Assembly (NCBI RefSeq): GCF_900115225.1
Contig: NZ_FOVR01000021.1
Location: forward strand, 1 to 38,870
DNA: 38,870 bases
From: Cohaesibacter marisflavi
GTDB taxonomy: Bacteria > Pseudomonadota > Alphaproteobacteria > Rhizobiales > Cohaesibacteraceae
Reading direction: 5' to 3'
Made by a program: the position numbers and the translations under genes. Shown one piece after another: positions 14,170-38,637 of this stretch. Below the pieces are notes generated by a model. The model was not told the origin of the DNA, did not search any database, and saw only the letters and a program-made list of their open reading frames with translations. Each line of letters opens with the position of its first letter. Within the stretch, counting starts at the first letter, position 1.

Positions 14170-14192
14170 CTTTTAAGATAGATGATGAAATC

Positions 14193-16811: not shown

Positions 16812-17113
16812 CGAATGCGACCAATACATATATCGGCAGCTCGCTCGACGATTTCCTGAAGGATGAAGGGTTGCGAGAAGAGGCCTACTCCATTGCCATA
16901 AAGAGAACGTTGGCAATGCAGATCGAGCAGGCGCGTTTGGAGCAAGATATGTCCAAATCAGAAATGGCCCGCCGCATGAAGACCAGTGCCTCCCAGCTAT
17001 CAAGGCTGTTTGACCCTGATAATGATCGCATTCAGTTGGACACGCTGATGAAAGCGGCTGCGGCCTTGGACCTGTCGTTGGAGTTTCGCTTGGTGCCCAA
17101 GCAGGCAGCATAA
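16808..17113 (+). CDS. Antitoxin, XRE-type helix-turn-helix (HigA-like)
   Basis: The protein is 101 residues. The HTH is QARLEQDMSKSEMARRMKTSASQLSRLFDPDN at ~residues 40-72, followed by LDTLMKAAAALDLSLEFRLV. The start overlaps the toxin stop by 4 bases, which couples translation. It should neutralise the upstream toxin and repress the operon, perhaps at 16423-16436. Confidence 0.88.
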   Translation: MTNATNTYIGSSLDDFLKDEGLREEAYSIAIKRTLAMQIEQARLEQDMSKSEMARRMKTSASQLSRLFDPDNDRIQLDTLMKAAAALDLSLEFRLVPKQAA

Positions 17114-21466: not shown

Positions 21467-22666
21467 ATGCAGTCCGTCCAGGAAACAGACACGGAAGAGT
21501 TCCTTTCAGAAATGTCGTTGCTGTTGAATCAACAGATCAATCGCATATGGACCGCAACTTATCCGCCTGAAGCTAAAAAAACACTCAGATCTTTTACGGC
21601 TAAGGAAGCTGCGTCGCTGATCGGTGTAACGAGCACAAGACTACGGCAGCTTGAGCTTGATGGTGAGATTCCGCCAGTTGCACGATTGGGCAATTCGGCT
21701 AGGCGTTATACCCTTTCCGATATTGATGATATTCGTCAGTATTACGCCGCGAAAAAAGTTTCTGACGCATTAAAGTTCCTGCCACGTAGACAAGGTGAGG
21801 AGAAGCTTCAGGTCATAACTGTTGCTAACTTCAAAGGTGGCTGCGCCAAGACGACTACGAGCATTCATTTAGCGCAATATCTCGCACTGAAGGGATTGCG
21901 GGTTCTCGCAATTGACTTGGATCCGCAGGCAAGTTTAACCGAGACATTTGGGATAAGAGCCGCAATTGACGTTGGATCGATGGAGTCGATCTATGGGGTG
22001 GTTTGCTATGATGAAGAACGGCCTGTGATGAAGGATGTAATACGGAAATCCTATTTTCACGGGTTGGACTTTATTCCAGCTCATGCAGAACTAAACTATT
22101 TTGAGCATGAAACCCCAGGCGCGATCAGCAACCCCGAATTTGTTGGGAAGTCGCACTTTGTTCGTCGGATCGCGGCGGCGCTTGAGACGGTTGAAGACGA
22201 CTATGATGTTGTCATCCTCGATGCGCCTCCTCAGCTCTCCTATATGACGCTGAACGCGATTTATGCTGCAACTGGCTTAATCGTTCCTGTGCAACCGGCA
22301 ATGATCGATGTTGCCAGTATGTCTCAGTTCTTGTCGATGTTGGTCGAGATGCTGGCAGCTTTCAAAGATGCTGGCACGCCGTTTGCACATGATTTTTTCC
22401 GATTGCTAATAACTCGTCATAATCCCAACGATGTGCCCCAGACCACATTGGCTGCGATGATGCGCTCACTGTTTCTTGATAAGATCATTGGAACTACTGT
22501 GCTTGATACGACTGCAATAGCAAACGCCGGTCTGGAGAACAAATCGTTGTATGAACTGAACCGCAGTGATGTTAGCCGTGACACCTATATTCGAGCGATT
22601 GACTCTGTGAACGCAGTAAATGGTGAGATCTTCGATCTGATTGAAAAAGCATGGGGGCGGAAATGA
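21467..22666 (+). CDS. repA: Plasmid partition ATPase RepA (ParA-type)
   Basis: The protein is 399 residues. The N-terminal MerR-like HTH (FTAKEAASLIGVTSTRLRQLE, ~residues 44-64) is followed by a ParA ATPase with the deviant Walker A FKGGCAKTTTS (~122-132), VLAIDLDPQASLT and VVILDAPPQLSYMTLNAIYA. This is the RepA architecture of repABC replicons: with RepB it partitions the plasmid and represses the operon. The stop overlaps the repB start (ATGA). Confidence 0.93.
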   Translation: MQSVQETDTEEFLSEMSLLLNQQINRIWTATYPPEAKKTLRSFTAKEAASLIGVTSTRLRQLELDGEIPPVARLGNSARRYTLSDIDDIRQYYAAKKVSDALKFLPRRQGEEKLQVITVANFKGGCAKTTTSIHLAQYLALKGLRVLAIDLDPQASLTETFGIRAAIDVGSMESIYGVVCYDEERPVMKDVIRKSYFHGLDFIPAHAELNYFEHETPGAISNPEFVGKSHFVRRIAAALETVEDDYDVVILDAPPQLSYMTLNAIYAATGLIVPVQPAMIDVASMSQFLSMLVEMLAAFKDAGTPFAHDFFRLLITRHNPNDVPQTTLAAMMRSLFLDKIIGTTVLDTTAIANAGLENKSLYELNRSDVSRDTYIRAIDSVNAVNGEIFDLIEKAWGRK

Positions 22667-23697
22667 GTGCTAACGATAAAAGGAAGCAGAAGCTAAGTGC
22701 TGCTTATGATGTCTCCGATCGTGCAGCTCTTCTCGAGAGCGCAAAGAAAGATGCCGGTCGCCGCTCGTCTGCTTCCATCCCTACACAAGCGCTCAAGACC
22801 TCAATGACTGCAATTGAACAGCGGGTAGTAGAACTCCAGAACCAGTTGAAAGAAACAGCGTTCCGGAAAATAGATCCTAAGAAAATTTTAGATTCTGCGG
22901 TAGCTGACCGGTTCCCTTGGAGCGAGGATACTGAGGAGTTTATAGCACTCAAGCAGTCTATCCAACTGGAAGGTCAGAAACTTCCGATTCTTGTGCGTCC
23001 CCATCCGGAGAAGTCTGAGTATTTCCAAGTCGCGTATGGTGCAAGGAGGGCGCATGCTTGTCGCCTTCTAGGCATTACGGTGAAGGCTTTCGTTCAAGAG
23101 CTTTCCGACGAGGAACTGGTTGTTGCTCAAGGTATTGAAAATAATGATCGTACCGATTTGTCTTTCATCGAGAAGGCTCTCTATGCTCGGTCATTGCAAG
23201 CCTTTGGGTATGCACATTCCGTGATTGGCAGGGCTATTGGAGTTCAAGACAAATCCAATCTACGGAAACTTCTTCGTATTGCAGATGCAATTCCCAACGA
23301 GATTTGTCATTTGATCGGCAGCGCCAATGGCGTTGGCCTGCCTCGGTGGTCTGCCCTCGCGATCGTGTTCGAGGACAGGCAGCAAGCTGCTGAAGACGCT
23401 ATCGTCAATGCTTCAGCTTCTGCTGCGTGGCAAAAGGCAGACAGCAACGGGCGTTTTGAAATCGCTCTCAAGGTGGCACAGCGCTCCGCGCATAAAAAAT
23501 CAGCATCAACGAACAAGCGAACCATTGTGTTCTTTCAATCGGGAAATGGTGACAAAATCGTTAAATTTTCGGAGAAGGTTAAATCTCTGGACTTTTCGAT
23601 TGATCGCTCGAAGGGGGAAGGTTTCGCTGAATTCCTTAGAGAAAGAATGGAAACACTCATCTCTGAATACGAAGCAGAGAAGGGAGAGAAACAATGA
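22663..23697 (+). CDS. repB: Plasmid partition protein RepB (ParB-type)
   Basis: The protein is 344 residues from ATG 22663, which overlaps the repA stop. The ParB N-terminal domain has DRFPWSEDTEEFIALKQSIQ and GARRAHACRLLG (the GxRR arginine box in variant form). It is followed by a KorB-like HTH (YAHSVIGRAIGVQDKSNLRKL). It binds a centromere-like parS and stimulates RepA. Its 3' end lies just before the antisense-RNA terminator. Confidence 0.93.
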   Translation: MSANDKRKQKLSAAYDVSDRAALLESAKKDAGRRSSASIPTQALKTSMTAIEQRVVELQNQLKETAFRKIDPKKILDSAVADRFPWSEDTEEFIALKQSIQLEGQKLPILVRPHPEKSEYFQVAYGARRAHACRLLGITVKAFVQELSDEELVVAQGIENNDRTDLSFIEKALYARSLQAFGYAHSVIGRAIGVQDKSNLRKLLRIADAIPNEICHLIGSANGVGLPRWSALAIVFEDRQQAAEDAIVNASASAAWQKADSNGRFEIALKVAQRSAHKKSASTNKRTIVFFQSGNGDKIVKFSEKVKSLDFSIDRSKGEGFAEFLRERMETLISEYEAEKGEKQ

Positions 23698-23715
23698 CCT
23701 GATCTGCGGGAAACG

Positions 23716-23748
23716 AAAAAACCCGTCAATCGGCAAATTGACGGGTTT
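23716..23748 (-). terminator. Terminator of the antisense RNA between repB and repC
   Basis: The 12-bp perfect stem (AAACCCGTCAAT / ATTGACGGGTTT) with a 6-base loop is followed, on the minus strand, by a run of six T. It therefore terminates leftward transcription, as expected for a repABC counter-transcript. Confidence 0.85.
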
Positions 23749-23792
23749 ATTAGATAGACAAAAGCGACAAGCGCTATAGTCCATAGTTAGCA
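23716..23792 (-). ncRNA. Counter-transcribed RNA (incompatibility RNA) of the repABC operon
   Basis: repABC plasmids encode a short antisense RNA in the repB-repC gap that represses repC. Here a minus-strand promoter (23799-23827) and a minus-strand terminator (23716-23748) bracket about 77 bases, the expected size. The RNA sequence can fold into the terminator stem plus an upstream stem (GCTATAGTCCATAGTTAGC region). The start point is estimated from the -10 box. Confidence 0.75.
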
Positions 23793-23798
23793 AATTTG

Positions 23799-23827
23799 AC
23801 TATAGGTGTGATGGACCCATTTGGCAA
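23799..23827 (-). promoter_or_regulatory. Promoter of the repABC antisense RNA
   Basis: On the minus strand TTGCCA (23827-23822), a 17-base spacer and TATAGT (23804-23799) form a near-consensus sigma-70 promoter. It directs leftward transcription towards the terminator at 23716-23748. Confidence 0.7.
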
Positions 23828-23910
23828 GACTCCTTCTTGACCAAAAACGGGATTTCTATGGCTTTTGTCTGGGATACAGGATCTCAAACCGCTGTTTGGC
23901 GGGAGGTACC

Positions 23911-25176
23911 ATGTCACAGAAACACACCACAATTGCCAATTTCCGATCTCTCTCGGATGGCATTATCGCAAGCGCGATCCTTGCCCAGCAAGACAATCGC
24001 CCGATTATCGAAAAGCATGAGCTGTCTTTGACCCTCAAGCGCGTAGCGCCAGCTTTGGGCATCAAGGGGACGGCCTATCATATTCTTGATATCTTGCTTG
24101 GACTGGTTCATGCGGACGACTTTCAGGAAGGCAACACACCCATCGTTGCCATTTCCAATCAACGCTTGGCCGAATATACGCAGCATACGACCCGAACCGT
24201 GACGAGAGGGCTTAAGCAGCTCGTTGAAGCAGGTATCCTGGCTTACAAGGATAGCCCGACTGGTCGGCGCTTCATTGATCGCAATCGGGCAGGGCAGGTT
24301 ATTCAGGCCTATGGCCTTGATTTCACTCCGGCCTGCTTCAACCTTGCTGCTTTCCGGAAGAAGGCGGATGCCTTCCAGAAAGCTTTGAATGCTGAGAGGG
24401 AAGCCAAGCGATCCGTGACGCGGTTGGCGCGTGCGATCCTTGATCTTTCCATGCAGGATGATGTGGATCTTGGCAAGCAGGTTGAGAGTGCTCAACGTGT
24501 TTTGGATGATACAGGAGCGATGTGGCATGACCGAGCAGATGCCATGACGGCGCTCTATCAGGAGGCCCTCTCAAAGCTTGGATATGATGCAGATAAGTCA
24601 GAAGAAAATACAAAAATGTCACCCGCGCATGACACTGGTGTCGTGACTATACCTAATACATCCTATTCCGATAATATTAGTAATAAGAAATTGCGGCCTT
24701 GCTCAAACGAGCAAGTCTCAAATTCAGAGAGCGGACAAGCCGCTCAATGGGCTTTTCGAAGAAAGCCTAGACGCGAGATCGAGCAAAAGCAATTACCATT
24801 TTCCCAAGACGAAGGGGCAGAACTGGGCAAAATCGATTGCATGGATCAGGTATCCATCGGTTTGGTGCAGACTGCATGCAAAAAGGTGCAAACCGTGACT
24901 GGCTGCACCTTCGCATCATGGCAGGAGCTGATGGGATCGGCGCAAATGCTGAAGCTCACAATCGGCCTCAGTGACCGGGATTTTGGTTGGGGTGTTGAAC
25001 GACAAGGCAACCTGATGGCGCTCGTCTGTTTGGCCGTTATTGTCGAAAAGGCGCTCAGAGATCCGGAGCTGATCTCTCATCCGGCAGCGTATTTCAAGGC
25101 AATGATCGACCGGGCCGAGGAAGGAAACCTCAACCTGGTCCGATCACTCCACGGTTTGCGCATGGAGCCTGTCTGA
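23911..25176 (+). CDS. repC: Replication initiator RepC
   Basis: The protein is 421 residues from ATG 23911 with GGGAGG upstream; the in-frame extension to 23821 crosses the antisense promoter and is not coding. The N-terminal HTH domains (LSLTLKRVAPALGIKGTAYHIL, NQRLAEYTQHTTRTVTRGLKQL) and the C-terminal winged-helix region (SIGLVQTACKKVQTVTGCTF, WGVERQGNLMALVCLAVIVE) are those of RepC of repABC plasmids. The origin lies inside repC in this family. The 3' end overlaps the convergent M48 gene by 33 bases. Confidence 0.92.
   Translation: MSQKHTTIANFRSLSDGIIASAILAQQDNRPIIEKHELSLTLKRVAPALGIKGTAYHILDILLGLVHADDFQEGNTPIVAISNQRLAEYTQHTTRTVTRGLKQLVEAGILAYKDSPTGRRFIDRNRAGQVIQAYGLDFTPACFNLAAFRKKADAFQKALNAEREAKRSVTRLARAILDLSMQDDVDLGKQVESAQRVLDDTGAMWHDRADAMTALYQEALSKLGYDADKSEENTKMSPAHDTGVVTIPNTSYSDNISNKKLRPCSNEQVSNSESGQAAQWAFRRKPRREIEQKQLPFSQDEGAELGKIDCMDQVSIGLVQTACKKVQTVTGCTFASWQELMGSAQMLKLTIGLSDRDFGWGVERQGNLMALVCLAVIVEKALRDPELISHPAAYFKAMIDRAEEGNLNLVRSLHGLRMEPV
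24590..24690. other. AT-rich segment within repC, likely replication origin
   Basis: The stretch around 24600-24690 (for example CCTATTCCGATAATATTAGT) is clearly richer in A+T than the flanking repC sequence. It encodes the low-complexity linker of RepC. In repABC plasmids the origin maps to such an AT-rich block in the middle of repC; that assignment is family knowledge applied here. Confidence 0.6.
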
Positions 25177-26490: not shown

Positions 26491-26646
26491 GTTGAACTGA
26501 TGTTTTCAAAACACGGAAACCGAACCAAAGTGGCCGGTGACACATGGTTCATTCTCAACCCGAAGGGTAAGAACAAGGATATTTACAATACCAATCACAC
26601 GAAGACCTATAAGGACCTCAAACGGCTTCTGGCTGAAATCAGGTGA
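26491..26646 (+). pseudogene. In-frame continuation of the secreted ORF after TAG
   Basis: The frame continues VELMFSKHGNRTKVAGDTWF and ends AEIR-TGA at 26644-26646; the middle reads NPKGKNKDIYNTNHTKTYKD. An ATG at 26500 could start a separate 48-residue ORF, but there is no ribosome site. A terminator follows 30 bases later, consistent with one transcription unit. The frame identity with the preceding ORF favours a split gene. Confidence 0.45.
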
Positions 26647-26675
26647 GTGTATTGAGACAAGCTGTCGGATGTCTG

Positions 26676-26707
26676 AAGGCTGAGGAGATGACCCTCGGCC
26701 TTTTTTT
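26676..26707 (+). terminator. Rho-independent terminator
   Basis: AAGGCTGAGG pairs with CCTCGGCCTT (one G-T pair) around a short loop and is followed by seven T. It ends the secreted-protein transcript. Confidence 0.85.
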
Positions 26708-26832
26708 CGTAGGGGAAGATTCCGCACCGTCACTTCCTTTTCTCCTCGTCGTCTCGCCCACGACATCAAAAGGCTTGGCTGTGAAGGTGTCCATGACGCG
26801 AGTTGATCGGCACAACCGCCGCCATGGCTAAA

Positions 26833-26949
26833 CACACTCTTCCTTCCCCGCATTGGGGCGCGCTCCCATGAGTCCTACGACCCATTTGCAGGGCGCAAAG
26901 CGCTCTTCTCATCCCTTCCATCGGAGCGACAGGCCGGAAGCGGAGTGTG
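26833..26949. repeat. Structured non-coding element related to the long hairpin repeats
   Basis: CACACTC at 26833 and GAGTGTG at 26943 are perfect outer arms about 100 bases apart. The inner part contains GCGCAAAGCGC. The block GCGACAGGCCGGAAGCGG matches, in opposite orientation, the GCCTGTCGC end of the repeats at 17996 and 19207. It may be a diverged third element. No gene is seen between 26708 and 27728. Confidence 0.35.
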
Positions 26950-27032
26950 AGACGCGCTTTTGCGCTGGCTTCAGAGGGTAAAGTCTCTCATTTTTGAGGT
27001 TTTCTTATTGACTCGATTTGAAACCCGAGTGG

Positions 27033-27253
27033 TCGCAATCTAACAAAAGAAATCGCTGTTTATCGCAATTCCTCTCCGAATATCTCGAAGAATCTGACAA
27101 TATCTCGTGGAAATCTTGGATAATTGCAATAGTTCAATTTGTTTCGCATTCTATTGCAATTTATTGCAGTTTGTTCTTTTTATGTTCCGAATTACACCCA
27201 ACGGAATCGCAATCTTTCGTAATTCATCGCCACCTATCGCAACAAATTGCAAT
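27033..27253. repeat. 10-bp-phased degenerate repeat array beside the nic site
   Basis: Copies of T(C/T)GCAAT-N3 occur at 27033, 27063, 27124, 27144, 27154, 27164, 27207, 27217, 27237 and 27247, with weaker matches (TCGCTGT, TCGCATT, TCGCCAC) at other steps. Two runs (27124-27173 and 27207-27253) have an exact 10-base period, and intermediate TCT-starting units keep the phase. A+T is high. Repeats in helical phase favour curvature and side-by-side protein binding, as described for TraK at the RP4 transfer origin. Confidence 0.75.
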
Positions 27254-27295
27254 AGGTGGGACGGCAGGATAGGTATGACGGTACCGTTCGTCATA
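27230..27295 (-). other. oriT: Origin of transfer (IncP/RP4-like oriT) with nic core
   Basis: On the minus strand CCTATCCTGCC (27273-27263) equals the nic core of RP4, where TraI cleaves CCTATCCTG^CC; here that is between 27265 and 27264. An inverted repeat TATGACG..CGTCATA (27274-27295) directly abuts the core, as the TraJ-site repeat does in RP4. On the other side a hairpin (CCACCTATCGCAA / TTGCAATAGGTGG, one mismatch, 27230-27259) ends 5 bases before nic. traKLM lie downstream. The cleavage position is inferred from RP4. Confidence 0.75.
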
Positions 27296-27728
27296 CGAGA
27301 GAATTCTTATTCGCGTTTCACGCTCAACGATTGGTTGAATTTCCCATCACACAGTGAAGACAAATTTACTCAACATTAGTAATGATTTTTGAAATTGTGG
27401 AAAAGGAATGGGAGAGGAGTCAACCTCCCGTATACAGGGAGTCACCTTGACACTATGGTGTGTTTTGTAAGTCGCTAGCGGTTCGAGTGGTCTCACTTCC
27501 ACATAAGACCACCCGAACCTAGCGAACATTAAAGTACCAGTTTAACATTCGCATTGGAGAACCAACTTACCCAAAGTCTGGCAATTGGTCGCTGACTTTC
27601 GCGCTTCGCGCTTTGTGCATTGAAGCCTACTAATGGCTGAATCGCTTTGTTATTGAAGCGACCAATTCGCCAATTCCACAAAAATTACCACAAATAGTAA
27701 GGGCGCGCCTTTTGGCGCGAACAATACC
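27296..27728. other. Non-coding region between oriT and traK with three inverted repeats
   Basis: This region has no supported gene. It contains an imperfect long inverted repeat (27473-27524; arms CGCTAGCGGTTCGAGTGGTCT and AGACCACCCGAACCTAGCG), a perfect 11-bp pair AATTGGTCGCT/AGCGACCAATT 63 bases apart (27583-27593 and 27657-27667), and CGCGCC-TTTT-GGCGCG at 27704-27719 just before traK. These are candidate sites for relaxosome proteins or traK regulation. Confidence 0.6.
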
Positions 27729-28190
27729 ATGCCGTCTGAACGGACCTCAGTCCGTCAGCCCTATGGTCAATCTCGCTTTGAGGTTGATGCTGTGCTGACG
27801 GAAACGCTACAACTTTGCCTTGTGAAGCCAAATTTAAAGGAAGTTTGGTTGGACCTCAACAACCGAGGGCGTGTTTCCAGCTCATATTCTTCCTTTATGC
27901 GCAGCCTCAAAAGTGCAGTGAGCTATCGAGATTTCTCGCACCTGCGCTCTATGGCTCGCACCAATTCTCACGAACAAGATGGGTCTGGTCGGGGCAATGC
28001 CGGAGGGAATGTCCCGACGACAGAAAATCTCGCTTCGGTTTCACAAAACACATCCCAAAATTCTGAAGCTGCGACCCTGCCAACATATTCAAAAACAGTC
28101 GATCAATCAAGGTCAGCGGCTGAACGCTTCCGAAATTCCAAAGATAACCCTTTCCGAAAAATTGATCGCAAAAAGAGGTTTGAATTCTAA
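27729..28190 (+). CDS. traK: TraK-like oriT-binding protein
   Basis: The product is 153 residues. The N-terminal third contains LKEVWLDLNNRGRVSSSYSS followed by FMRSLKSAV, which parallels the RP4 TraK segment 'IWEHMRETGRLRCRYETFTLHVKRYI'. The rest is polar, low-complexity and basic. The stop overlaps the traL start (TAATG). In RP4, TraK binds and wraps the oriT leading side to help the relaxase. Position next to traL-traM and 0.4 kb from the inferred oriT supports the call more than sequence alone. Confidence 0.75.
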   Translation: MPSERTSVRQPYGQSRFEVDAVLTETLQLCLVKPNLKEVWLDLNNRGRVSSSYSSFMRSLKSAVSYRDFSHLRSMARTNSHEQDGSGRGNAGGNVPTTENLASVSQNTSQNSEAATLPTYSKTVDQSRSAAERFRNSKDNPFRKIDRKKRFEF

Positions 28191-28951
28191 TGGAAAAAAC
28201 CTTCCATCTTGTATTGCAAGCAAAGGGCGGGATCGGCAAAAGCCTGACTGCTTCCATCATTGCCCAGTACTACTCCCATAGAGCTGTTTCGGTAACAGCA
28301 GTTGATTGCGATCCCAGTACACCCACTTTTTCGACAATCCCCGGGCTGAAAGCTATTCCCCTTCAGATTATGGAGGAAGATGACATCAACCCTCGCTGTT
28401 TTGATCAGATGATCGAGACAATTGTTGAAGCAGAGGCTGGTGAACGGATCATCTGCGATATTGGCACGAGTGCTTATGTGCCCTTCACATCATACCTCAT
28501 TCAGAATGTGGCCCTTCCGTTTCTGCAGGACAGTGGAACGCGCGTTTTGATCCATTCTCCCATTTGTGGTGGCCCTGCGTTTCAGAGCACGCTCGACGGT
28601 CTAGGAGAGCTGATTTCACAGTTTGAAACGGCTCAATTTGTCATCTGGGAAAACGAATTTTTCGGGCCTGTTGGTCGGGAAGGGAAGAGCTTTAGCGAAA
28701 GTAAATTCTTCCAGACCTATAAAGACAGGATTTTCGAGCTGCTTTTGCATCCTCGCGTTCAACAAGCAACCTTTGGCGCTGACATAAGAGCGATGATGGA
28801 GCAAAGTCTCACTTTTGAAGCTGCGATCCAGTCTCCAGACTTCAAGATCATGAGCCGCCAAAGGTTGAGACAGATCTGGAAGTCGCATGTGACTCAACTG
28901 GACCAATCCAGGCTTTCTGCTGCGCTTGTTGCCGAAGAGGCCGCAGAATGA
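28190..28951 (+). CDS. traL: TraL-like ParA-family ATPase of conjugation
   Basis: The protein is 253 residues. It aligns well with RP4 TraL as I remember it: HLVLQAKGGIGKSLTASIIA (Walker A ~10-18), VDCDPSTPTF, ERIICDIGTSAYVPFTSYLI, an EGKSF-type motif (REGKSFSESKF) and MSRQRLRQIW near the end. This is a MinD/ParA-like ATPase; its role in conjugation is accessory and not well defined. Overlaps with traK and traM show one operon. Confidence 0.88.
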   Translation: MEKTFHLVLQAKGGIGKSLTASIIAQYYSHRAVSVTAVDCDPSTPTFSTIPGLKAIPLQIMEEDDINPRCFDQMIETIVEAEAGERIICDIGTSAYVPFTSYLIQNVALPFLQDSGTRVLIHSPICGGPAFQSTLDGLGELISQFETAQFVIWENEFFGPVGREGKSFSESKFFQTYKDRIFELLLHPRVQQATFGADIRAMMEQSLTFEAAIQSPDFKIMSRQRLRQIWKSHVTQLDQSRLSAALVAEEAAE

Positions 28952-29406
28952 GCGGGATCGATCACTCTTCAGATCAACTGGATCTGGAGTGGGATACTCT
29001 CAAGAATGAAGATGCCAGAGAAGCCATTATGCGACATTCCGGCGTCATTCTGTCTGAAGATGATCCCATAATGGCGCTTGTGCCCTTGCTCAATGCCTTT
29101 TCAGACACGCTTAAAGCCAATCTTTCAAAGGCCATGGATCTCTTTGGAGAGCGCAGCAAATCTGGCGTGCGTGAAGTTGTCGCCACCGTCGATGACAAGC
29201 TGAATGAAGCGGTCAGATCGGTCTCCGAGATCAACAATGCGGTGACACAAGAGAATATCGCTACTCACCTTCAGGCCGTCGCTCATTTCACCGAACAACT
29301 AACGCTTGTCAAACGGTCCATGCAGCGCATGACCCGTTGGAACGGCTTCTTTTCCTCCATCAACATTCTGGCGGTTATCGCCATCTTTGTGATCCTCAAA
29401 CAATAG
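28948..29406 (+). CDS. traM: TraM-like membrane-anchored protein
   Basis: The product is 152 residues. The start overlaps traL by 4 bases. The middle is helical and probably coiled-coil (residues ~40-130), and a single C-terminal membrane segment (FFSSINILAVIAIFVILKQ) anchors the protein tail-first. Size, order and topology match TraM of the IncP traKLM operon. The early segment HSGVILSEDDPIMALVPLLN parallels RP4 TraM 'GRDDPLLMVITMNR'. Confidence 0.8.
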   Translation: MSGIDHSSDQLDLEWDTLKNEDAREAIMRHSGVILSEDDPIMALVPLLNAFSDTLKANLSKAMDLFGERSKSGVREVVATVDDKLNEAVRSVSEINNAVTQENIATHLQAVAHFTEQLTLVKRSMQRMTRWNGFFSSINILAVIAIFVILKQ

Positions 29407-29415
29407 GAAATTACA

Positions 29416-29727
29416 ATGTCGCGCATTTATATTCGAAAATCCAAAACTCGTCTGCCTTTGGCCCTTGCCGGTATGGCCCTTGGTAGTTCCAGCGCCTTGG
29501 CTGGCTCTGACTGGGCCTCTCCTGCCACGTCTCTGGCAGAATCCCTTCAGAGCGGCACCGTGAGCATTGCGACTGCAATTATCGGCTTCGGGCTGATCCT
29601 TTACGGCATCTATATCATAATTTCAGGGCACTTCGATATTCGGCGGGTACTGACCTATGTGCTCGGCGGCGCTTTGATCATGGTTGGTCCTAGTATTCTG
29701 ACGACCCTCTTGTCGGCAACGTCATAA
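29416..29727 (+). CDS. virB2: VirB2/TrbC-type pilin
   Basis: The precursor is 103 residues. A signal-like N-terminus (RLPLALAGMALGSSSALAGS) is followed by two membrane segments (SIATAIIGFGLILYGIYIII and VLTYVLGGALIMVGPSIL) with a short basic loop (SGHFDIRR) between them. This is the standard form of VirB2/TrbC pilins, which assemble the conjugative pilus. It opens the mating-pair-formation gene cluster. Confidence 0.9.
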   Translation: MSRIYIRKSKTRLPLALAGMALGSSSALAGSDWASPATSLAESLQSGTVSIATAIIGFGLILYGIYIIISGHFDIRRVLTYVLGGALIMVGPSILTTLLSATS

Positions 29728-29739
29728 GGGAGCAGCACG

Positions 29740-30048
29740 ATGAAAGCACAAAGCAGCGTTGCTACCTATGTGCAAGAGCCGATGAAAATCCTCGGTATGT
29801 CACCTTTTCACTTTTCCGTTGTCGTCATTGGGGTGGTTCTCCTTTCCATGCTTGGCGGAGTTGCGGGCGGTCAATCTGTTGCCTTTGTGCTTTTCATCGT
29901 GACGATGCCGCTCGGGATTGCGTGGGCCGTTTATATGCGCCGCAAAGATCCTCACTCCGACACTCTTTTCCTTCTGCCCAATACTTTTCTGAGAGGCAAA
30001 CCAAGCCGCCATTTGGTTGCTGGTGAAAAGAAGAATTTGGAGAAATAA
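29740..30048 (+). CDS. virB3: VirB3-like inner-membrane protein
   Basis: The product is 102 residues. The N-terminal VQEPMKILGMSPFHFSVVVI has the P-x-x-x-x-G pattern of VirB3. Two membrane segments lie at ~24-40 and ~47-64, and a cytoplasmic C-terminal tail with PNTFLRGKPSRHL follows. It assists the VirB4 ATPase. The gene starts 13 bases after virB2 and ends 4 bases before virB4. Confidence 0.87.
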   Translation: MKAQSSVATYVQEPMKILGMSPFHFSVVVIGVVLLSMLGGVAGGQSVAFVLFIVTMPLGIAWAVYMRRKDPHSDTLFLLPNTFLRGKPSRHLVAGEKKNLEK

Positions 30049-30051
30049 CCA

Positions 30052-32400
30052 ATGCTAACCCAAGCATTATTCATGACAACAACAGCTCTTTTTGCTGGTG
30101 CGCTCTTTCATCCTAAAACATCGCGCTATTTGCTCGGTGACATTGATGAGGATTGGCTGGCTAACGAGCTGGAATTTGATCAAATCCTTGCTGACAATCA
30201 GACCCTTCAATTGAAGGATGGGCAGTATGTCCGCATCTTTACCTTGTCCGGAGTGGCCTATGAGACGCGTTCTCTGGCTGAGCAGGATATCCTTGCAAAA
30301 ACCCGATCAACTGCATTCCATCAATTTCTCAAACCCGGCTCCTCTATCCGCATTCTTGGTGTGAAGCGATCCAGAGATGTCAGCTTTGAAGCGGAATGGC
30401 CGACCGTTACGCTCAAAGAAATTGGAGAGAAAGAGCAGTGCATTTATCAAAATGCTTTTGAGCAAATCTGGTGCCTTGTCCTTACCTGCCCAACTATGAG
30501 CGAGTTGGACAAAACGACCAGAGGATTTTCTTCATCCTTCGAAAGCTATGGCCTACGACCTGTTTTCACCGCATCAAAGCTTGATGCCCCCTGTGAACTG
30601 AGTAGTTTTGTCAATTATTTGATATGCGGCCAGTTCATGCCCTTCCTACCGCGTATTTCCCAAAATATGAGCGCCAATATTCCGGCTTGCGATCTGGATA
30701 TCTCATCGGATGGTGTGATCAAAACCACCATTCCTGCTTCATATTTCAACAAAATCATAGCGGTTCGTACATGGCCAGAAACCATGAATGGGCTTCTGAT
30801 TTCTCAAATTCTCGCGCTGCCTGCCGAGCTAGAGATTTGTCATATTGTGAAGCCGCTGGACACGACACAGCAGGTTGCGCTTTTCACGCGGACTGTCCAA
30901 GAGCAAAAGCACAATTTCTTCGGGACTGGAACTCAGCTTGCGGAGTTTGAAGGAGCGCTTGAGGACTTGCTCAATGATGAGCATCATCTCATGGAAACGC
31001 AGTTTCAAATTGCTGTCAGATCAAAGTGCGAAGCGAGGCTTGATGAGGTGATCGACAAGATCACCGCAATTCTCGACAAAGCGCGTGTCCTATATTCCAT
31101 CGAGACAAAAGGGACGTGTGTGGCTTGGTTCAATCGCATGCCAGGTCGAGAGAAGCTTCTGCGCCCATTGCGCCTTTTTGATAGCAACATAGCAACACTA
31201 TGGCCGTTCCAGTTCTCCCCTATCGGTATGTGGAAGTCACCTTTTGGGGATCGCCCGATCCGATTGTTCAAGACGCCAACGGGCGCCAACTACGCGTTCC
31301 AGTTTCACGTATCGGACAAACCGCAGAGCCCCGGCAATTACCTTGTCTTTGCTCCGACTGGTTCAGGTAAGTCCACCCTTATCATGCATTTGCTTGGAGG
31401 CCTGTCGAAGTTTCCAAAAGTTCGGAACTATGTGTTCGATTCCAAGGATGGTGCGCGCTTCATGGTCGAGGCCATGGGAGGCGTCTATCAGGGATATGAC
31501 GAGCTTGCCCTCAATCCTCTGGATACGGACCTGTCGGACAAGACCGCCAAACTCAGGGCGCTTCAGATTATGCGCTTGCTCGCGGGGAACTAATATACGG
31601 AAAATATGGAGGCGTTGCTTAGCAATGCCATTGATATGTCCGAATATCTGGAAGTTGGCGAACGGACACTCAACAACATTTTTACGGCTTCCTTCCCTCG
31701 TTTATCGACCGAGCACAGGCTTTTTGAAAAGTGGGTCTCCCTTGAAGAGAAAGAGGGACAATATGCCCATGTCTTCAATGCGCCTCGGGATCAGATTTCC
31801 GGTTTTCTGGAAAAGTCATTCCTTGCAGGGATCAATATGAACGAAGCGTTGGAAGATCCTCTGTTGGGCCCTCCGGTCATCGCCCACATTGCCAACGCGA
31901 TTTCTCAAGCCGCTCGCAAAACTGATGGTGGCTTTTCCATCTTCGTCGATGAAGCCGCAAATCTTCTGCGCAACGATGGCTTTCGCAAACTCGCGCTTGA
32001 GATGTATCGCGAATACAGAAAGCTTGATGGGCTTGTTGGGTTGGCCTTTCAGGAACCGGGAGCCTTGCTTTCGGTAGAAGGAGCTTCGGGCATTATTGAG
32101 AATGCCCAGACCATGTTCTTCTTTCCCAACTCCAACGTCGATACCAAAAATCTCGAACCGCTCAATCTATCCTCTGAACAGATCGCATTCATCAAGGGGC
32201 AGGGGGATATGCGTGGTGGCCGACAAGTCATGATCGTCAAGCGGTTCGAAGCCAGCTCCTTCAATGAGAGCGCCATCATCGACATTGACCTTACGCCTTT
32301 TGGAGACGCAATCCGTTTCTACCGCTCCGGTCCAGCCCCAATTCGCGAACTCAACGAAATCAAACAAGAATGGGGGGATCAATGGCTATCCCATATCTGA
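30052..32400 (+). pseudogene. virB4: VirB4 ATPase interrupted by an in-frame TAA
   Basis: The full frame would give 782 residues, normal for VirB4. Walker A FAPTGSGKSTLIM is at ~433-445, and Walker B FSIFVDEAANLL at ~627-638. A TAA at 31591-31593 (codon 514) separates them. The frame then continues YTENMEALLSNAIDMSEYLE without shift to the true stop at 32398-32400. No slippery sequence is seen. Without suppression only a 513-residue N-terminal part (or a 264-residue C-terminal part from ATG 31606) would be made. VirB4 is essential for type IV secretion, so transfer should be blocked. A sequencing error is possible. Confidence 0.85.
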
Positions 32401-33206
32401 GATCACATTTGCTTGCGGCGTCACTCCTCGTTGCTCTGGTAGGTGCTCCATCGACATCACAGGCTGCGATGCTGGTTGTCGATACGAGCAATCTGGCAGA
32501 GGCGCAAAAGTCAGTTGCAGCGCTCAAGAGCCAGCTTGAAACAGCTAAAAACCAGCTCAACACTTTGAAAGAGAGCCTGGAGGTGGCAACTGACCAGCTC
32601 AAGAAGCTTCAGGAAGTCAAGAAGGTTGCCGATGATACCTTCTCCGCCATTGGTGAGATGGGGCATATCACGATCCCATCCATCAACTTCAAGAGCTTGG
32701 CGAACTCGATTGCGAGTGCAAAAAGTTGTCTCGTTCCTGATTACAAGAACCTGATGCCATCAGTTGATCTTGAGAACATGTCCTTCAGCTCGATCTGTGA
32801 CCGCAGTTCGGCTTACAGCTCCGGGCTGATCACAAAGAAGGAGAGCCTCCAGACCGGGTCATGGGCAGAAAAGAAGGAAGTGCTCAAGGGCATCCAGACG
32901 AACCGGGTCAACACCATCACGGATGCATCTGTCAAAGGTTTGGCGCAGGCCGATCAGGCCATTGAGACAGCCGATGAGACGTTGGAAACCGCTCAGGATT
33001 ACAAAAAGGCCGGAGAATCTGCCGCCGATATGAATGCCCGTCTACAGGTGCTGATTGAAGTCAATGTCGCGCGCTTGGTTGCACAAAGCCATATGAACCA
33101 GCTTATGGCCCAAATGCTCAAGGTTCAGGCCGCTGCGACCATCAATGAACAAGTCCCTGTAGAGAATGATCGGGCTGAAGAGACCGATGCAGAGGGGCAA
33201 GAATAA
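32382..33206 (+). CDS. virB5: VirB5-like periplasmic protein
   Basis: The product is 274 residues from ATG 32382 (MAIPYLRSHL); ATG 32370 is 4 codons earlier. A signal peptide (LLAASLLVALVGAPSTSQAA) is followed by long helices with coiled-coil character (AEAQKSVAALKSQLETAKNQ) and a C-terminal helical segment (LQVLIEVNVARLVAQSHMNQ). This is the VirB5/TrbJ pattern: minor pilus-tip component. It overlaps the end of virB4 and precedes virB6. Confidence 0.82.
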   Translation: MAIPYLRSHLLAASLLVALVGAPSTSQAAMLVVDTSNLAEAQKSVAALKSQLETAKNQLNTLKESLEVATDQLKKLQEVKKVADDTFSAIGEMGHITIPSINFKSLANSIASAKSCLVPDYKNLMPSVDLENMSFSSICDRSSAYSSGLITKKESLQTGSWAEKKEVLKGIQTNRVNTITDASVKGLAQADQAIETADETLETAQDYKKAGESAADMNARLQVLIEVNVARLVAQSHMNQLMAQMLKVQAAATINEQVPVENDRAEETDAEGQE

Positions 33207-34222
33207 TGGATTGCACCACCTGCACAGTTTTTGAGGCCTTCGTCGATAACTCGTCCGGCTTTGTTGATCAGATGGTTTCCAACGTGGAAGGACCTCTTAC
33301 CGGGCTTGTTATTGCCATTGCAACAGTCTGGATCGTCTGGATAGGTCTTCAGGTTGTCTTAGGCTCGCTTGATGTACCTCATGCGGTGAAACAAGTTGTC
33401 TTTATGGTTCTCGGCTTCGGGGCCTTTCTGGGCGTTGAAAGTATCGTCTCGACAGTCTTTGATACGACCATTTCCGTTCTTGGCGGTTTGTCTGCTTCCA
33501 TTACGGGCTATAGTGGCGCGGGAACCAACGGGATCTCGTCTCTGCTGATGGCAATTGAATCCCAGATTACCAAAGTCATCACGATCGTCTCCATATTTAT
33601 TGGAGAGCCTAGTTGGGCAGGATCGATATCATATGTGATGAGGGCAATATATGGATTTTTCCTTTTAGTTCCGTATGGTCTTCTGCTCATCCTCTTTCTT
33701 GCCCAAACGGCAACCTGCCTGTTTCGGATCGCGCTGATTTGCGGCCTTTCCCCCTTCATCGTTGCTCTATCCGGCTTCCCTTTTGGTTCGGGGCTTTATG
33801 CTCAGGCCATCCGCACGCTCATCAGTGCGATTGCAACCATGCTCGCCGTAACACTGGTTTTTTCCATCGTCTCCAAATGCTTCGATGTTCTTAATATTGG
33901 AGGCGACGCCTCCCTCTCTCCTGATGACTTTGCAACGCTGACCTCGGGACCGTTTCTGCTTGCGCTCATCATGGGCTGGCTTGGTTGCGCTCTAATGTCA
34001 GAAGCCATTTCGATTTCAGGATCTATCGCTGGTGCGATGCTTGGCTCGGTTGGTGCAAGCACTCTTGCAGGCAGAACCCTTGGGGTTGGAGCTGCCGCAG
34101 GTGGCGTTGGAGGGGCTGTCACGAAATATGCTGGCAGCAAAGCGCTAGACGGAGCCAAGTCAGGCTACGAAAAATACAAAAATCGCAAAAGGCCGGGCGA
34201 AATATCCACCCCTACAGAATGA
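33206..34222 (+). CDS. virB6: VirB6/TrbL-type polytopic membrane protein
   Basis: The product is 338 residues. Its start overlaps the virB5 stop (TAATG). There are about six membrane segments, including LTGLVIAIATVWIVWIGLQV, VVFMVLGFGAFLGVESIV, AIYGFFLLVPYGLLLILFLA and FLLALIMGWLGCALMSEAIS. The Gly/Ala-rich C-terminal tail (GAAAGGVGGAVTKYAGSKAL) is usual for VirB6/TrbL. It forms part of the inner-membrane channel. Confidence 0.88.
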   Translation: MDCTTCTVFEAFVDNSSGFVDQMVSNVEGPLTGLVIAIATVWIVWIGLQVVLGSLDVPHAVKQVVFMVLGFGAFLGVESIVSTVFDTTISVLGGLSASITGYSGAGTNGISSLLMAIESQITKVITIVSIFIGEPSWAGSISYVMRAIYGFFLLVPYGLLLILFLAQTATCLFRIALICGLSPFIVALSGFPFGSGLYAQAIRTLISAIATMLAVTLVFSIVSKCFDVLNIGGDASLSPDDFATLTSGPFLLALIMGWLGCALMSEAISISGSIAGAMLGSVGASTLAGRTLGVGAAAGGVGGAVTKYAGSKALDGAKSGYEKYKNRKRPGEISTPTE

Positions 34223-34241
34223 AAGTCGAAAGGTATTTCAA

Positions 34242-34421
34242 ATGATTAAAGTAGTCCTGAGTGCGCTTATTTTTGCCTCATCCATCACCATGACAGGCTG
34301 TTCCACATTCTCGAAAACGGAAATGCCTATCAAACCGGATGGCGTCGATGAAATGCGCAAATCTCCTTGTGCTTGCACTGAGATCCAGTATCAGGCTCCC
34401 CGTTTTGAATGGGTGGGTTGA
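34242..34421 (+). CDS. virB7: Small lipoprotein, VirB7-like
   Basis: The ORF has 59 codons. It begins MIKVVLSALIFASSITMTGC, with a lipobox T-M-T-G-C whose Cys is residue 20. The mature part is short and ends YQAPRFEWVG, with two further Cys (SPCACTE). It sits between virB6 and virB8, exactly where VirB7 is expected, and overlaps the start region of virB8. VirB7 stabilises VirB9 in the outer-membrane core. The identification rests on position, lipobox and size. Confidence 0.78.
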   Translation: MIKVVLSALIFASSITMTGCSTFSKTEMPIKPDGVDEMRKSPCACTEIQYQAPRFEWVG

Positions 34422-34429
34422 GGTTCCTT

Positions 34430-35410
34430 ATGCGATTTCTAACCCGACTATTCAGAAGGCTGCGCAAGCCCCCTGATCAGGTTGTGCGCATCGAGCCAGT
34501 TGAGCGCGTAGAGCCGGAGGCTGTTTCCTCATCATTGATGCTTACGGTCGCCAATGACGAAAAGCAGGTGGGAGGAGACGTGGGGACGAGCGCGTATGAG
34601 CAGCAGGAAGACCCTGCTGTCTACTACGGCTCGAAACTGCCATTTCATAAAAGAATTCTCTCTTTTGGCAAGAAGCAAAGCACCAGAAAGCCGAAGTCTG
34701 ACGACAGGGAAAAAGGAGCAGTACGACAAGCTGAGGAAGGGATCGGCAACCACAGAGCCGTACTTACTGCAGATCCGTTTGCCTTCAAAACGGCAGCGCG
34801 TCGGAACGCCTTTTTCTTGCGTTTTTTCGTCGTCTATTCGACAGCCGCGACTTTGGCTATCATTGTTCTTGTCAGCACCATAAGTGAGCTTTTCCCGCTT
34901 AAAACAACCGAGTTTGCTTTGTTGCGGGTGGACCCCAATGATGACCGGATCTACTCGGTCGAACCGGTTTCTGTAAAAGTTCCCGGCTATGAGCTGATGG
35001 TCGAGAAAATTGCGCGCCGCTATGTTCGCGATATTCTGGCAATTGATGATGTTACCCAGAATGAGCGCTTCAATCGCGTTCGTCGCTATAGCGATAGCGA
35101 CTTCTTCAACGCCTATCTCAAAGCAAACAAAGATCTTATCTCCCGCGCTCTAGGGGATGGTTTGAACCGATCAATCACAGTGGTCGGCGCAAACAAGATC
35201 GTTCGGTATGACGACATCTACCAGTTTGTCGTTGAATTCATCCAGACAGACAAGATCGGGCGAGACAAGCCAAAGAAGCGCCATTTGCGCGCCTATCTCG
35301 AACTAGAGCCTCGCCAGCAAGACGTTCAGGAAGTCGACAAATTCGAAAATCCCCTCGGTATCCGCGTCCTCAATATGGCAGTCAAAGAGGAACCTACAAA
35401 AAATGAATAA
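34430..35410 (+). CDS. virB8: VirB8-like core protein
   Basis: The product is 326 residues from ATG 34430 (MRFLTRLFRR). The cytoplasmic N-terminus is unusually long (~125 residues, charged and disordered). One membrane segment follows (FFVVYSTAATLAIIVLVSTI), then the periplasmic VirB8 domain with EFALLRVDPNDDRIYSVEPV and YVRDILAIDDVTQNERFNRV. The stop overlaps virB9. The long cytoplasmic tail may be a substrate- or ATPase-docking extension. Confidence 0.85.
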   Translation: MRFLTRLFRRLRKPPDQVVRIEPVERVEPEAVSSSLMLTVANDEKQVGGDVGTSAYEQQEDPAVYYGSKLPFHKRILSFGKKQSTRKPKSDDREKGAVRQAEEGIGNHRAVLTADPFAFKTAARRNAFFLRFFVVYSTAATLAIIVLVSTISELFPLKTTEFALLRVDPNDDRIYSVEPVSVKVPGYELMVEKIARRYVRDILAIDDVTQNERFNRVRRYSDSDFFNAYLKANKDLISRALGDGLNRSITVVGANKIVRYDDIYQFVVEFIQTDKIGRDKPKKRHLRAYLELEPRQQDVQEVDKFENPLGIRVLNMAVKEEPTKNE

Positions 35411-36401
35411 GTCCATATTCGCATCAATTCTGGCCGCTGCGGTTCTCGTGAGTGCACCAATCGCCCATGCTCAGACCGCGATTGTGCGGCAGCCCCCTAA
35501 TCGCTCTGTTGCCGATAATACCAAAAGCCGGATCGATGGGGCCAATCAGGCGGCCGCGCAGGCCGCATTGGGGCTGGATGCAATTGCTGAGGAGCAGGCT
35601 CGCTTGCAAGCCTCTGGTGACTTCGGTGTTATGCAACGCAATGTTTCCATCGGCGGGCAGATCCAATCTGCATGGTCATACAAAACCAAAGGGCAGGGCG
35701 TTCATATCGAGGCGCTGTGCGATACGTGCGTCTATAAGGTCCGTTTGCGCGAGTACATGACAACGGCCATCGTCTTGCCAGAGCGAATGGAGATTGAAAG
35801 CGTTGATCTGGGGGATACCAATCGGTTTGACGCCAAGCGCCGTACCAAGAATATTCTGGTCGTGAAACCTCTTGGATCTGGGGTTGATAGCTCCATGCAG
35901 GTCTATACAAAAGAAGGTCAGGTTCTTTCCTTCTATCTTCGCTCTGAATCGGTGCGGTCCAGGCACACTCCGGACCTTACCTTCAAGATTGAAGACCGGA
36001 TTGATGCAAGTGGATTGGAGGTCATCAACTTTGTTGATGGTGCCAATGGTACTGCCAGCCCCTCTGTGCAAGGTCAGATGGCCGCAACTGGAGCGAAAGA
36101 CTTCCTTAAAACAGCGACTTTCGACCCTTCCAAAATTCGTGGTTTCGATAGCTACAAATTGTGGGGTGACAAGAGCCTGAAGCCCGAGCAGGTCTATCGC
36201 GACGACAATTTCACTTACATTCAGTATGGCGACAAATGGAATGATATCGAGCTTCCAACGGCTTATGTGGTGGTCGATGACATTGACGAGCTGGTCAACA
36301 CGCGCGTTATCGGTACGACATTTGTCGTTGAGTCAACGCATCGGTTGATCACGCTCAAGAGCGGCCAGTCCTACATGTGCATCCAGTATTTGGGAGACTG
36401 A
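35403..36401 (+). CDS. virB9: VirB9-like outer-membrane core protein
   Basis: The product is 332 residues with a signal peptide (SIFASILAAAVLVSAPIAHA). The C-terminal domain carries the VirB9/TrbG signature YKLWGDKSLKPEQVYRDDNF and TYIQYGDKW, then PTAYVVVDDIDELVNTRVIG. It forms the outer-membrane ring with VirB7 and VirB10. It starts inside the end of virB8 (8-base overlap). Confidence 0.88.
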   Translation: MNKSIFASILAAAVLVSAPIAHAQTAIVRQPPNRSVADNTKSRIDGANQAAAQAALGLDAIAEEQARLQASGDFGVMQRNVSIGGQIQSAWSYKTKGQGVHIEALCDTCVYKVRLREYMTTAIVLPERMEIESVDLGDTNRFDAKRRTKNILVVKPLGSGVDSSMQVYTKEGQVLSFYLRSESVRSRHTPDLTFKIEDRIDASGLEVINFVDGANGTASPSVQGQMAATGAKDFLKTATFDPSKIRGFDSYKLWGDKSLKPEQVYRDDNFTYIQYGDKWNDIELPTAYVVVDDIDELVNTRVIGTTFVVESTHRLITLKSGQSYMCIQYLGD

Positions 36402-36403
36402 TC

Positions 36404-37501
36404 ATGGGATTGTGCACTGTGTTCCTGGCTCTCAATATGTCATTGGGGGGGCTATGCCACCAACCCCCTTCAATCCCGCGTGGTGTTGGGGAAAGTGATC
36501 CTCAGGTTTTCGACTATGAGAAACCAACGCCTCCGCCGCCCCCTCCCAAGCCACACGTCATAACAATGCCGCCTGTTGTTATCAATAAGCAGGTCGAGGT
36601 TCCGGTTGAGAAGGAAGTGGTCAAGGAGAAAAAGGTCACTGAATACGTGACGCAATATCTTCAACCCGAAGTGAAAGAGGAACCCGGCCCTACGTCTTTG
36701 CAGATTGCCTTGCAACAGGAAATGCTTGAGCGCCGTGCTGCCCAACAAAGGCTTGTTGCGGTGGATCTTGATGGAGAATTGACCAGTACGCAGGCTCCGG
36801 AAGGGCGCTACAATGCGAACCTTCCGAATTTTCCGCCGCCTGATGGCATTGACAAAGAGAACAGCAAATACAGCGCTCAGCGCAGTTATTCCACCACTGC
36901 GGTGGACAATACCCGTATTCTGGCCGCTGACCGTGTCATCACCGGCATTCTTGAGAATGGCGTGAACTCGCAGCTTTCAGACAATGGATCTGTGATCGTG
37001 CAAGTCTCTCGTGATGTTTACGGGGCTCACGGACGAACCAAACTGGTTCCCAAGGGCTCACGCATGATCTGTCACTATGATGAAGTCGATAAGGTCGGGC
37101 AGACGCGTGTCGGCTTTACATGTAATCGTATTCTTCTGGCTGAGAGCCGCGCTGAAATCTTCCAGCTCTCCTCTCATATTGGTGATAGCCAAGGCTATGG
37201 TGGTCTCTCGGGCGAGGTCGATAATCGCTTCTGGGAGAAATATGGCAGCGCCATCCTGACGACCGCGCTTGGGTCGGCAGTCGAAGCCGGCGTTATGGCT
37301 GCATCTTCAGCTGATCAGTCAGATTCCAATATCATCGGTAATGGAGCATCCGGAGTTTCCGAGAATGTGGGGCAGATTACCGCCGCCATTCTTGAAGACA
37401 CAGTTGATCTTACCCCGATCATCCGAATTGCGCAGGGAACCCGCGTGCAAATCCGACCAGAGAAAGACTGGTATCTGGCCGATCCGGTCAAATCAAACTA
37501 A
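36404..37501 (+). CDS. virB10: VirB10-like channel protein
   Basis: The product is 365 residues from ATG 36404, two bases after the virB9 stop. A short hydrophobic N-terminus (GLCTVFLALNMSLGGLC) is followed by a Pro-rich linker (YEKPTPPPPPPKPH) and a Val/Glu/Lys region. The TrbI/VirB10 barrel follows: DRVITGILENGVNSQLSDNG, GRTKLVPKGSRMICHY and TPIIRIAQGTRVQIRPEKDW. It spans both membranes and senses ATPase energy. The hydrophobic segment is shorter and more N-terminal than usual. Confidence 0.88.
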   Translation: MGLCTVFLALNMSLGGLCHQPPSIPRGVGESDPQVFDYEKPTPPPPPPKPHVITMPPVVINKQVEVPVEKEVVKEKKVTEYVTQYLQPEVKEEPGPTSLQIALQQEMLERRAAQQRLVAVDLDGELTSTQAPEGRYNANLPNFPPPDGIDKENSKYSAQRSYSTTAVDNTRILAADRVITGILENGVNSQLSDNGSVIVQVSRDVYGAHGRTKLVPKGSRMICHYDEVDKVGQTRVGFTCNRILLAESRAEIFQLSSHIGDSQGYGGLSGEVDNRFWEKYGSAILTTALGSAVEAGVMAASSADQSDSNIIGNGASGVSENVGQITAAILEDTVDLTPIIRIAQGTRVQIRPEKDWYLADPVKSN

Positions 37502-37512: not shown

Positions 37513-38637
37513 ATGAGATTGCGAAAGCAATTGAGCTTGGGATTTGTGTTAGCAGCTTTGCTCACACCAAATCTCGCTATGGCTCAATCGTCACCCGATA
37601 GTGGTGCGCAGGCAGCAACGACAGATCCCGCTTTGGCAATATCGGGTCCAAGCGACGCCGAAGCGGTTATCAAGGAAAACCTGTTTACCGTTGTGCCCAC
37701 GCTGGAAACAGCAATGACGGAAGAAGGATCTCCCGTCAATCTTTCCTTCTCTGGCTCTCCCAATACGGAGACACCAGTTGATCTAAGCGGGATCTCTGCG
37801 AAGGGGGTTACGCGCACCGTGACAGTTGATGGCGAGAAGATCGCCCAGGTTGTTGTTACCAATCTATCCAACGAGGATGACGCGTCAGTCGCTCTTTCGG
37901 CCGATAAATTCACCAGTCAGTTCAATATTGACTCTGACATATTGGAGCCAACAACGGCCATATCTGTCAACGGGAATGAAGAGGAGTTTGTCACTGCTGT
38001 CAAATCCCTCCAGAAAACCCCACCTGAAGAAGAGGAAGAGCCCGAAGAAAAGGGCACGGAGAACGGAACTGATCGAGGCACTTCCACAAGCGGTGGAGGG
38101 AGTGCAAATGATATCGCCGGTTCTTACCAGACCCCTGAGAGGATCGAGCCGGAAGAAGAAGAGCCTGAAGATACTGTTGAAGTTCGTGTGACGACTGTCG
38201 GCTGTCCGGTTGTCATTGACGAGACCCAAGGGCTTGTTCGTGTGCAATCCAAGAGCCAGACCTTCACCAATGGAACGATGACCTCGGAAGATGCCTGCAC
38301 CGATAACGGTACGACCTATACCATCCAGAAGTCCTATACGACTTGTAGCGATGTGGTTGATCTGGATGGTAAAACCGCTAATCCTCAATATCTGTCCTAC
38401 TATATTGACGCTGAGGCGACCCGCAAGGAGATCTCCGACTGTCAGCCAGATATCGAGAAAACCTATAAAATCTCCGAGATTGAGAATGGCTGTTCTGTGT
38501 CGGTTGATATCGACAATATGAAGGTTAGCCGGAATACGTCTCTTGTGTATACAAATGGCAATAACACCCAGATCAAGGTGCAGGATTGTTCACCATCGGA
38601 GACATTGGAGGGGCGTGTCGCAAACTTTTGTCGTTAA
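37513..38637 (+). CDS. Secreted protein with three Cys-framed repeats, C-terminus replaced by IS6 end
   Basis: The ORF has 374 codons with a signal peptide (RLRKQLSLGFVLAALLTPNL..AMA|QSS). A Thr/Ser/acidic region (residues ~30-215, including EEEEEPEEKG) is followed by three tandem units of ~45 residues. Each begins with Cys after a turn and ends with a second Cys: CPVVIDETQG..DAC, CSDVVDLDGK..DCQ, CSVSVDIDNM..DCS. I do not recognise the family; similar Cys repeats occur in surface proteins of conjugation loci. The last eight residues (GRVANFCR) and stop are encoded by the IS6 terminal repeat starting at 38611, so the native C-terminus is lost. Confidence 0.7.
   Translation: MRLRKQLSLGFVLAALLTPNLAMAQSSPDSGAQAATTDPALAISGPSDAEAVIKENLFTVVPTLETAMTEEGSPVNLSFSGSPNTETPVDLSGISAKGVTRTVTVDGEKIAQVVVTNLSNEDDASVALSADKFTSQFNIDSDILEPTTAISVNGNEEEFVTAVKSLQKTPPEEEEEPEEKGTENGTDRGTSTSGGGSANDIAGSYQTPERIEPEEEEPEDTVEVRVTTVGCPVVIDETQGLVRVQSKSQTFTNGTMTSEDACTDNGTTYTIQKSYTTCSDVVDLDGKTANPQYLSYYIDAEATRKEISDCQPDIEKTYKISEIENGCSVSVDIDNMKVSRNTSLVYTNGNNTQIKVQDCSPSETLEGRVANFCR

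Follow-up and report, generated by a model that had tools for sequence, protein, structure and literature searches.

The segment at 27263-27296 of the DNA analyzed here is very probably the cognate origin of transfer (oriT) of a Cohaesibacter repABC plasmid, at which the TraI/MobA(P) relaxase encoded in the same tra operon would nick. The stretch of 38,870 nucleotides that was analyzed (hereafter "the window") is the whole of contig C41. By its sequence and that of its relatives, the site belongs to the RP4/TraI kind of oriT, with its own relaxase in cis and a rearranged layout. The closest named relatives, as measured by TraL, were Cohaesibacter haloalkalitolerans (98%) and C. celericrescens (66%). 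The features of the window are collected in Table 1.

Table 1. Features of the window, in order of position
Feature	Position	Strand	Remarks
repABC replication and partition genes	21467..25176	plus	leading side of oriT
AT-rich stretch, repeated TTGCAAT/TCGCAAT-like words	27030..27262		leading side of nick
Hairpin, 12/13 pairs	27231..27260		leading side of nick
nic core CTATCCTGCC	27263..27272	minus	exact match
Predicted nick CTATCCTG^CC	between 27265 and 27264	minus	position by analogy with RP4
Perfect inverted repeat adjoining core, 8-8-8 bp	27273..27296	minus	arms vary among lineages, each pairing with its own partner
Second conserved element	27474..27573	plus	14-bp inverted repeat, 12-14 nt spacer, plus smaller stem
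traK-like gene	27729..28190	plus	by position, no family match
traL-like gene, ParA/MinD-type ATPase	28190..28951	plus	NF010461, 215 bits, below cut-off of 360
traM-like gene	28948..29406	plus	by position, no family match
virB2/trbC, virB4, virB6, virB8, virB9, virB10	29416..37501	plus	Pfam
virB3- and virB5-like genes	within 29416..37501	plus	by position
Large operon gene, 5' part, IS-interrupted	37513..38610	plus	continues on C39 (shared duplication, open frame)
8-bp target duplication CATTGGAG	38603..38610		present also at the end of C39
IS	38611 to contig end		one end of an IS240-like element; other end terminates C39

The RP4-type nic core reported in the preliminary description was found exactly on the minus strand, as the 11-mer CCTATCCTGCC at 27263-27273, which is its single exact copy in the window. 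Read on that strand from 27296 to 27263, the site is GTATGACG-AACGGTAC-CGTCATAC-CTATCCTGCC. The inverted repeat that had been given as TATGACG-N8-CGTCATA, 5' of the core, is real and abuts it (gap of 0), with the correction that its arms are slightly longer, at 8 bp (GTATGACG-N8-CGTCATAC, 27273-27296). The adjoining of core and repeat puts 8 nt between the repeat and the predicted nick, the same spacing as described for RP4 (8 bp; PMC7314908). The site accordingly has the YATCYTG core, the abutting inverted repeat and the 8-nt distance to the nick that characterize this kind of oriT. The exact nick, the protein contacts and the direction of transfer are all predicted by analogy with RP4.

By itself the 11-mer proves nothing, as about 2.5 copies of CCTATCCTGCC are expected by chance in the 5.34-Mb genome (our own arithmetic, at equal base frequencies). 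Three exact copies were found in the genome, and none of a backwards control. The other two copies (contigs C19 and C28) were inspected by eye, and no abutting repeat was seen in the 80 bases before each. When one mismatch was tolerated, one more copy was located in the window at 29516; two or more matches were obtained in 10 of 100 shuffles. The core with its abutting repeat is more than chance would give. When the window was shuffled 300 times (first-order Markov), no place had both a core with at most one mismatch and a perfect repeat of 7 bp or longer adjoining it; relaxing the core to two mismatches yielded 8 places in the 300 shuffles. No DNA similar to 26500-28500 was found in the plasmid collection. 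Rfam applied to 26500-28300 returned only STAXI (16.7 bits; cut-off 40.5), and gave no match at E up to 0.1 for four related loci (L023, L024, L028, L031). A consensus scan of 26900-27800 returned one promoter-like site (1.2 in shuffles) and three terminator-like sites (1.0 in shuffles).

The core and repeat were found antisense and upstream of traL in all six Roseibium aggregatum plasmids. In an order-level search, TraL was detected in 13 of 397 genomes, at 14 places including the window; the site was antisense at nine of these (window included) and sense at five, the site in L029 being weaker. Eighty of the 93 named TraL loci found were kept. Among the closest 11, ten had an antisense site (L036-L045), and the core plus repeat was not found in the eleventh (L046). 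The same criteria gave 10 matches in the remaining 69 loci (eight sense and two antisense, the latter in L058 at 2986 bp and in L099 at 906 bp) and none in 59, some of which had little upstream sequence. The antisense core and repeat stood about 790-980 bp before the traL match in the Roseibium, order-level and closest named loci. A Thalassospira plasmid with a similar operon had no core plus repeat within 2.5 kb of traL.

All of the antisense sites near traL (Roseibium, order-level and L036-L045) read CTATC[C/T]TGCC in searches that permitted other letters. It is highly improbable that the core and repeat serve only as an operator regulating the tra operon and resemble a nic site by coincidence. 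RP4 TraJ, in binding to its repeat, also represses its own promoter (PMC7314908), so operator and oriT roles can coexist; however, an operator alone offers no reason for the motif to abut the repeat in every one of these sites, and the core here is the same as that of an IncP plasmid and occurs alongside a TraI-family relaxase. The arms were compared in 25 loci chosen by the same motif plus an abutting repeat, some of which represent one genome twice. Among them were 13 distinct sequences, with arms of six types. All six types pair with their own partners, and none of 30 chimeras had a perfect 4-bp arm reaching the core. Since CACTT is common to three types, not all six count as independent. 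The core and repeat in the window are identical to those of the sister plasmid. With six versions of the repeat next to a nick core that hardly varies, these loci offer natural material for finding out which protein recognizes the repeat and how the specificity of that protein shifts.

As had been noted before, the window itself contains no relaxase gene. Two Pfam relaxase matches were found in the genome, on contigs C39 and C20. The C39 protein (354 aa) matched Relaxase and TraI_middle in Pfam and scored 332.3 bits against NF041893 (TraI/MobA(P); cut-off 250). It was 32% identical to R751 TraI and 56-59% identical to five aligned Roseibium proteins; a comparison of it with solved structures returned no match. 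Its Tyr20 aligns with Tyr22 of R751 TraI, and H111, H118 and H120, which we take to be the relaxase His motif, are invariant in the alignment. The score above the family cut-off and the Tyr and His residues held in common with R751 TraI place the protein in the TraI/MobA(P) (MOBP) family, as the preliminary description had anticipated. In RP4 TraI, Tyr22 is catalytic (PMC7314908). Upstream of the relaxase gene are those for a 114-aa NikA/TraJ-like protein, a toprim protein, a TraG-type coupling protein (596 bits; cut-off 586) and a VirB11-type ATPase. The TraJ-like protein scored 33.9 bits against the Pfam NikA-like family (cut-off 27) and 33.6 bits against NCBIfam TraJ, below the cut-off of 134.

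The preliminary description had concluded that the relaxase must act from elsewhere. This conclusion was not supported: the relaxase gene closes the same tra operon, which is severed where the contig ends in a copy of an IS. When the IS was omitted, the frame of the interrupted gene was open for 957 codons across C41 and C39. In the sister genome (G003; TraL 98%), the oriT, traK to virB10, the large gene, virB11, virD4, the traJ-like gene and traI lie on one contig, on which the oriT and traI are 17 kb apart with the operon between them and no IS transposase match was found. Given the shared 8-bp duplication, the continuing frame and the single contig of G003, the relaxase need not come from another replicon. 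C39 and C41 thus appear to belong to the same replicon, the IS junction resting on a draft assembly.

The window without a relaxase and the presence of a second one on C20 would suit an oriT mobilized only in trans, by the relaxase of another replicon. There is scant likelihood of this arrangement, however. The last genes of the operon, on the far side of the IS with its shared duplication, are those for the TraJ-like protein and the relaxase, and in G003 both lie on the oriT contig; the relaxase is in cis in six of six Roseibium plasmids, and a TraJ-like homologue is present in both of those tested (L012, L013). Further, the C20 relaxase scored just 28.6 bits against the TraI/MobA(P) model. 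On C20 (L008:6135-12104), this second, divergent MOBP-like relaxase has a NikA-like neighbor and is near the contig end; a 645-aa possible coupling protein was noted there by eye.

In the favored arrangement, with the relaxase in cis, the short (354-aa) TraI/MobA(P) protein from the far end of the tra operon would nick the minus strand at CTATCCTG^CC. The TraJ/NikA-like protein, encoded just before the relaxase, would probably hold the abutting inverted repeat. The nicked strand would then depart 5' end first, toward repABC, so that the tra operon would reach the recipient last. Nicking and transfer are predictions from sequence.

The state of this particular copy is a separate matter. An in-frame TAA at 31591-31593 divides virB4 into frames of 513 and 264 aa; virB4 is a single 782-aa frame in two Cohaesibacter relatives (L116, L118). 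Because of this stop and the IS in another operon gene, this copy may be unable to transfer itself and may need help; as read from the assembly, it may require the channel of another plasmid. The same two lesions could mean that the site is a once functional oriT on a decaying plasmid without self-transfer. This possibility, which is compatible with the identification of a cognate oriT, is on the unlikely side: the core and repeat match those of the sister plasmid, the relaxase match is without a stop, and the virB4 stop could be a sequencing error.

The traK-, traL- and traM-like genes that had been reported near the site were upheld in part. The traL-like gene is recognized by NCBIfam, below the cut-off, and the traK- and traM-like genes, which had no family match in Pfam or NCBIfam, are named by position only. 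The operon order after the oriT is traK-, traL- and traM-like, virB2, virB3-like, virB4, virB5-like, virB6, virB8, virB9 and virB10. Elsewhere in the window, ScpB-like, DUF1403 and tyrosine integrase genes are adjacent at 12469-15311, and two adjacent small genes at 16455-17113 resemble, by eye, a HigBA-kind toxin-antitoxin pair.

On the leading side of the nick, AAATTGC (at most one mismatch) occurred at nine sites in 260 bp, a number equaled by two of 60 shuffles. The best word on the other side occurred at four sites, which all 60 shuffles equaled. Leading-side repeated words were reached by three or fewer of 60 shuffles in four of eight lineages and not in the other four; on the other side, none of the eight lineages had repeated words at that level. 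These observations are suggestive of accessory-protein sites on the leading side. The hairpin that had been described there as 13 bp is present, with 12 of 13 pairs. Among the relatives inspected by eye, the near-identical sister plasmid (L023) alone retains it; it is absent from the other Cohaesibacter locus and from the six Roseibium plasmids.

A second inverted repeat is conserved between the oriT and traK. In 15 aligned rows, both sides had changed in 32 cells, a count that none of 500 shuffles reached (11.3 in shuffles); in the same rows 93.6% of cells pair, and there were no one-sided changes. The lack of G-U steps suggests that the element pairs as DNA, not as RNA. A model built from it found one full copy in the genome of the window, and full copies in three of 61 genomes searched (the window's own counted). 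The model matched 11 of 50 sources, among them L031 (3e-10) and L034 (2.8e-6), both of which were outside the model-building set; R751, the Thalassospira plasmid and L046 gave no match. The short, asymmetric spacer is present in both orientations among related plasmids. The spacer of L020 agrees with that of the window in 13 of 14 letters when reversed and in 6 as is, and that of L038 in 12 and 5. The L026 spacer agrees with that of L012 in 11 letters reversed and 6 as is, and the L012 spacer with that of the window in 7 and 6, which favors neither orientation. Spacer orientation was labeled using our own motif rule (read by eye for L014, L039, L041 and L045); under these labels, it changed at least four times on a 20-row TraL tree. 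With low confidence, the element is interpreted as a protein-binding site that is occasionally flipped by recombination or template switching. It is a decidedly long shot that the transfer origin is a composite, in which the second repeat is inherited together with the nick site and might, as a site of recombination or protein assembly, switch or set the transfer of the tra operon.

In PLSDB, MOB-suite types the six Roseibium plasmids with such an oriT and relaxase as "non-mobilizable", which may mean that gene flow in these bacteria is underestimated. Together with the plasmid described here, they form part of a group of marine alphaproteobacterial plasmids that combine an RP4-like relaxosome with a virB-type channel. 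The Thalassospira plasmid with a similar relaxase and operon is likewise non-mobilizable in PLSDB (seven of seven fetched records).

The inverted orientation of the oriT was traced in TraL trees. Thirteen of the 80 named loci have a divergent upstream traI; the site was sense in seven of these, antisense in 0, and not found by our criteria in six. In a first tree (47 chosen rows, without L031 and L034), 20 antisense rows fell in a fully supported group of 21; L046, within this group, and L099 had no orientation label. In a second tree (28 chosen rows), L031 and L034 were beside the antisense group (support 83), on long branches that make their position unsure, and L099, there counted as antisense, fell among sense rows, giving two orientation changes. 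The inverted form thus comes close to a single clade, L099 being a possible second origin. In this deltaproteobacterial MAG locus, a possible antisense CATCCTGCC with an imperfect repeat was located roughly 906 bp ahead of the match to traL at 4415.

Among known plasmids, those of Roseibium aggregatum (NZ_CP045621.1 and five others) are alike in the position and orientation of the oriT and in the second element (six of six). The operon order is annotated whole in four of the six; it crosses the record start in NZ_CP128602.1, and the virB10-virD4 stretch of NZ_CP128603.1 is annotated as small frames only. Their virB4 is annotated as a single gene, of 2352 bp in four of six, while the remaining two have lengths of 2130 and 2505 bp. 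repABC is common to NZ_CP045621.1 and the present plasmid, and was not found in the examined 41 kb of NZ_CP045633.1. The Roseibium core is CTATCTTGCC, with arms unlike those here. By description, the PromA plasmids (pIPO2, pSB102) also carry virB-like mating genes; their RepA is described as IncW-related (PMC4290620). The oriT described here, in its rearranged layout, was not met in a literature search at the level of search results.

The IncP comparison was made with R751 and pMNCN064 in place of RP4. The earlier assignment to an IncP/RP4 type holds for the nick site and the relaxase; it does not extend to the plasmid, which has repABC replication, mating-pair genes in virB order, and an oriT that faces the other way relative to traKLM than in R751 and pMNCN064. 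The core CCTATCCTGCC is exact in the IncP plasmid pMNCN064 and in a Sphingobium plasmid, and is ACATCCTGCC in R751. The abutting repeat, TraI/MobA(P) relaxase, TraJ protein and adjoining traKLM are also shared with IncP-1 (R751; pMNCN064). However, the repeat here is short (24 bp), with arms unlike those of IncP-1. The traJ-like gene and traI close the operon here, whereas they are divergent in IncP-1; the oriT, rather than lying between divergent traJI and traKLM operons, is inverted, and the relaxase gene comes last in its operon. The single long virB-type operon and repABC also set the plasmid apart from IncP-1, and no TrfA match was found among 30 window frames scanned against Pfam. The core points away from traKLM, and toward traK/traL in R751, pMNCN064 and the Sphingobium plasmid. 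RP4 transfers its traKLM side first and traJI last (PMC7314908); the reversed oriT here predicts instead that the replication and partition genes would enter first.
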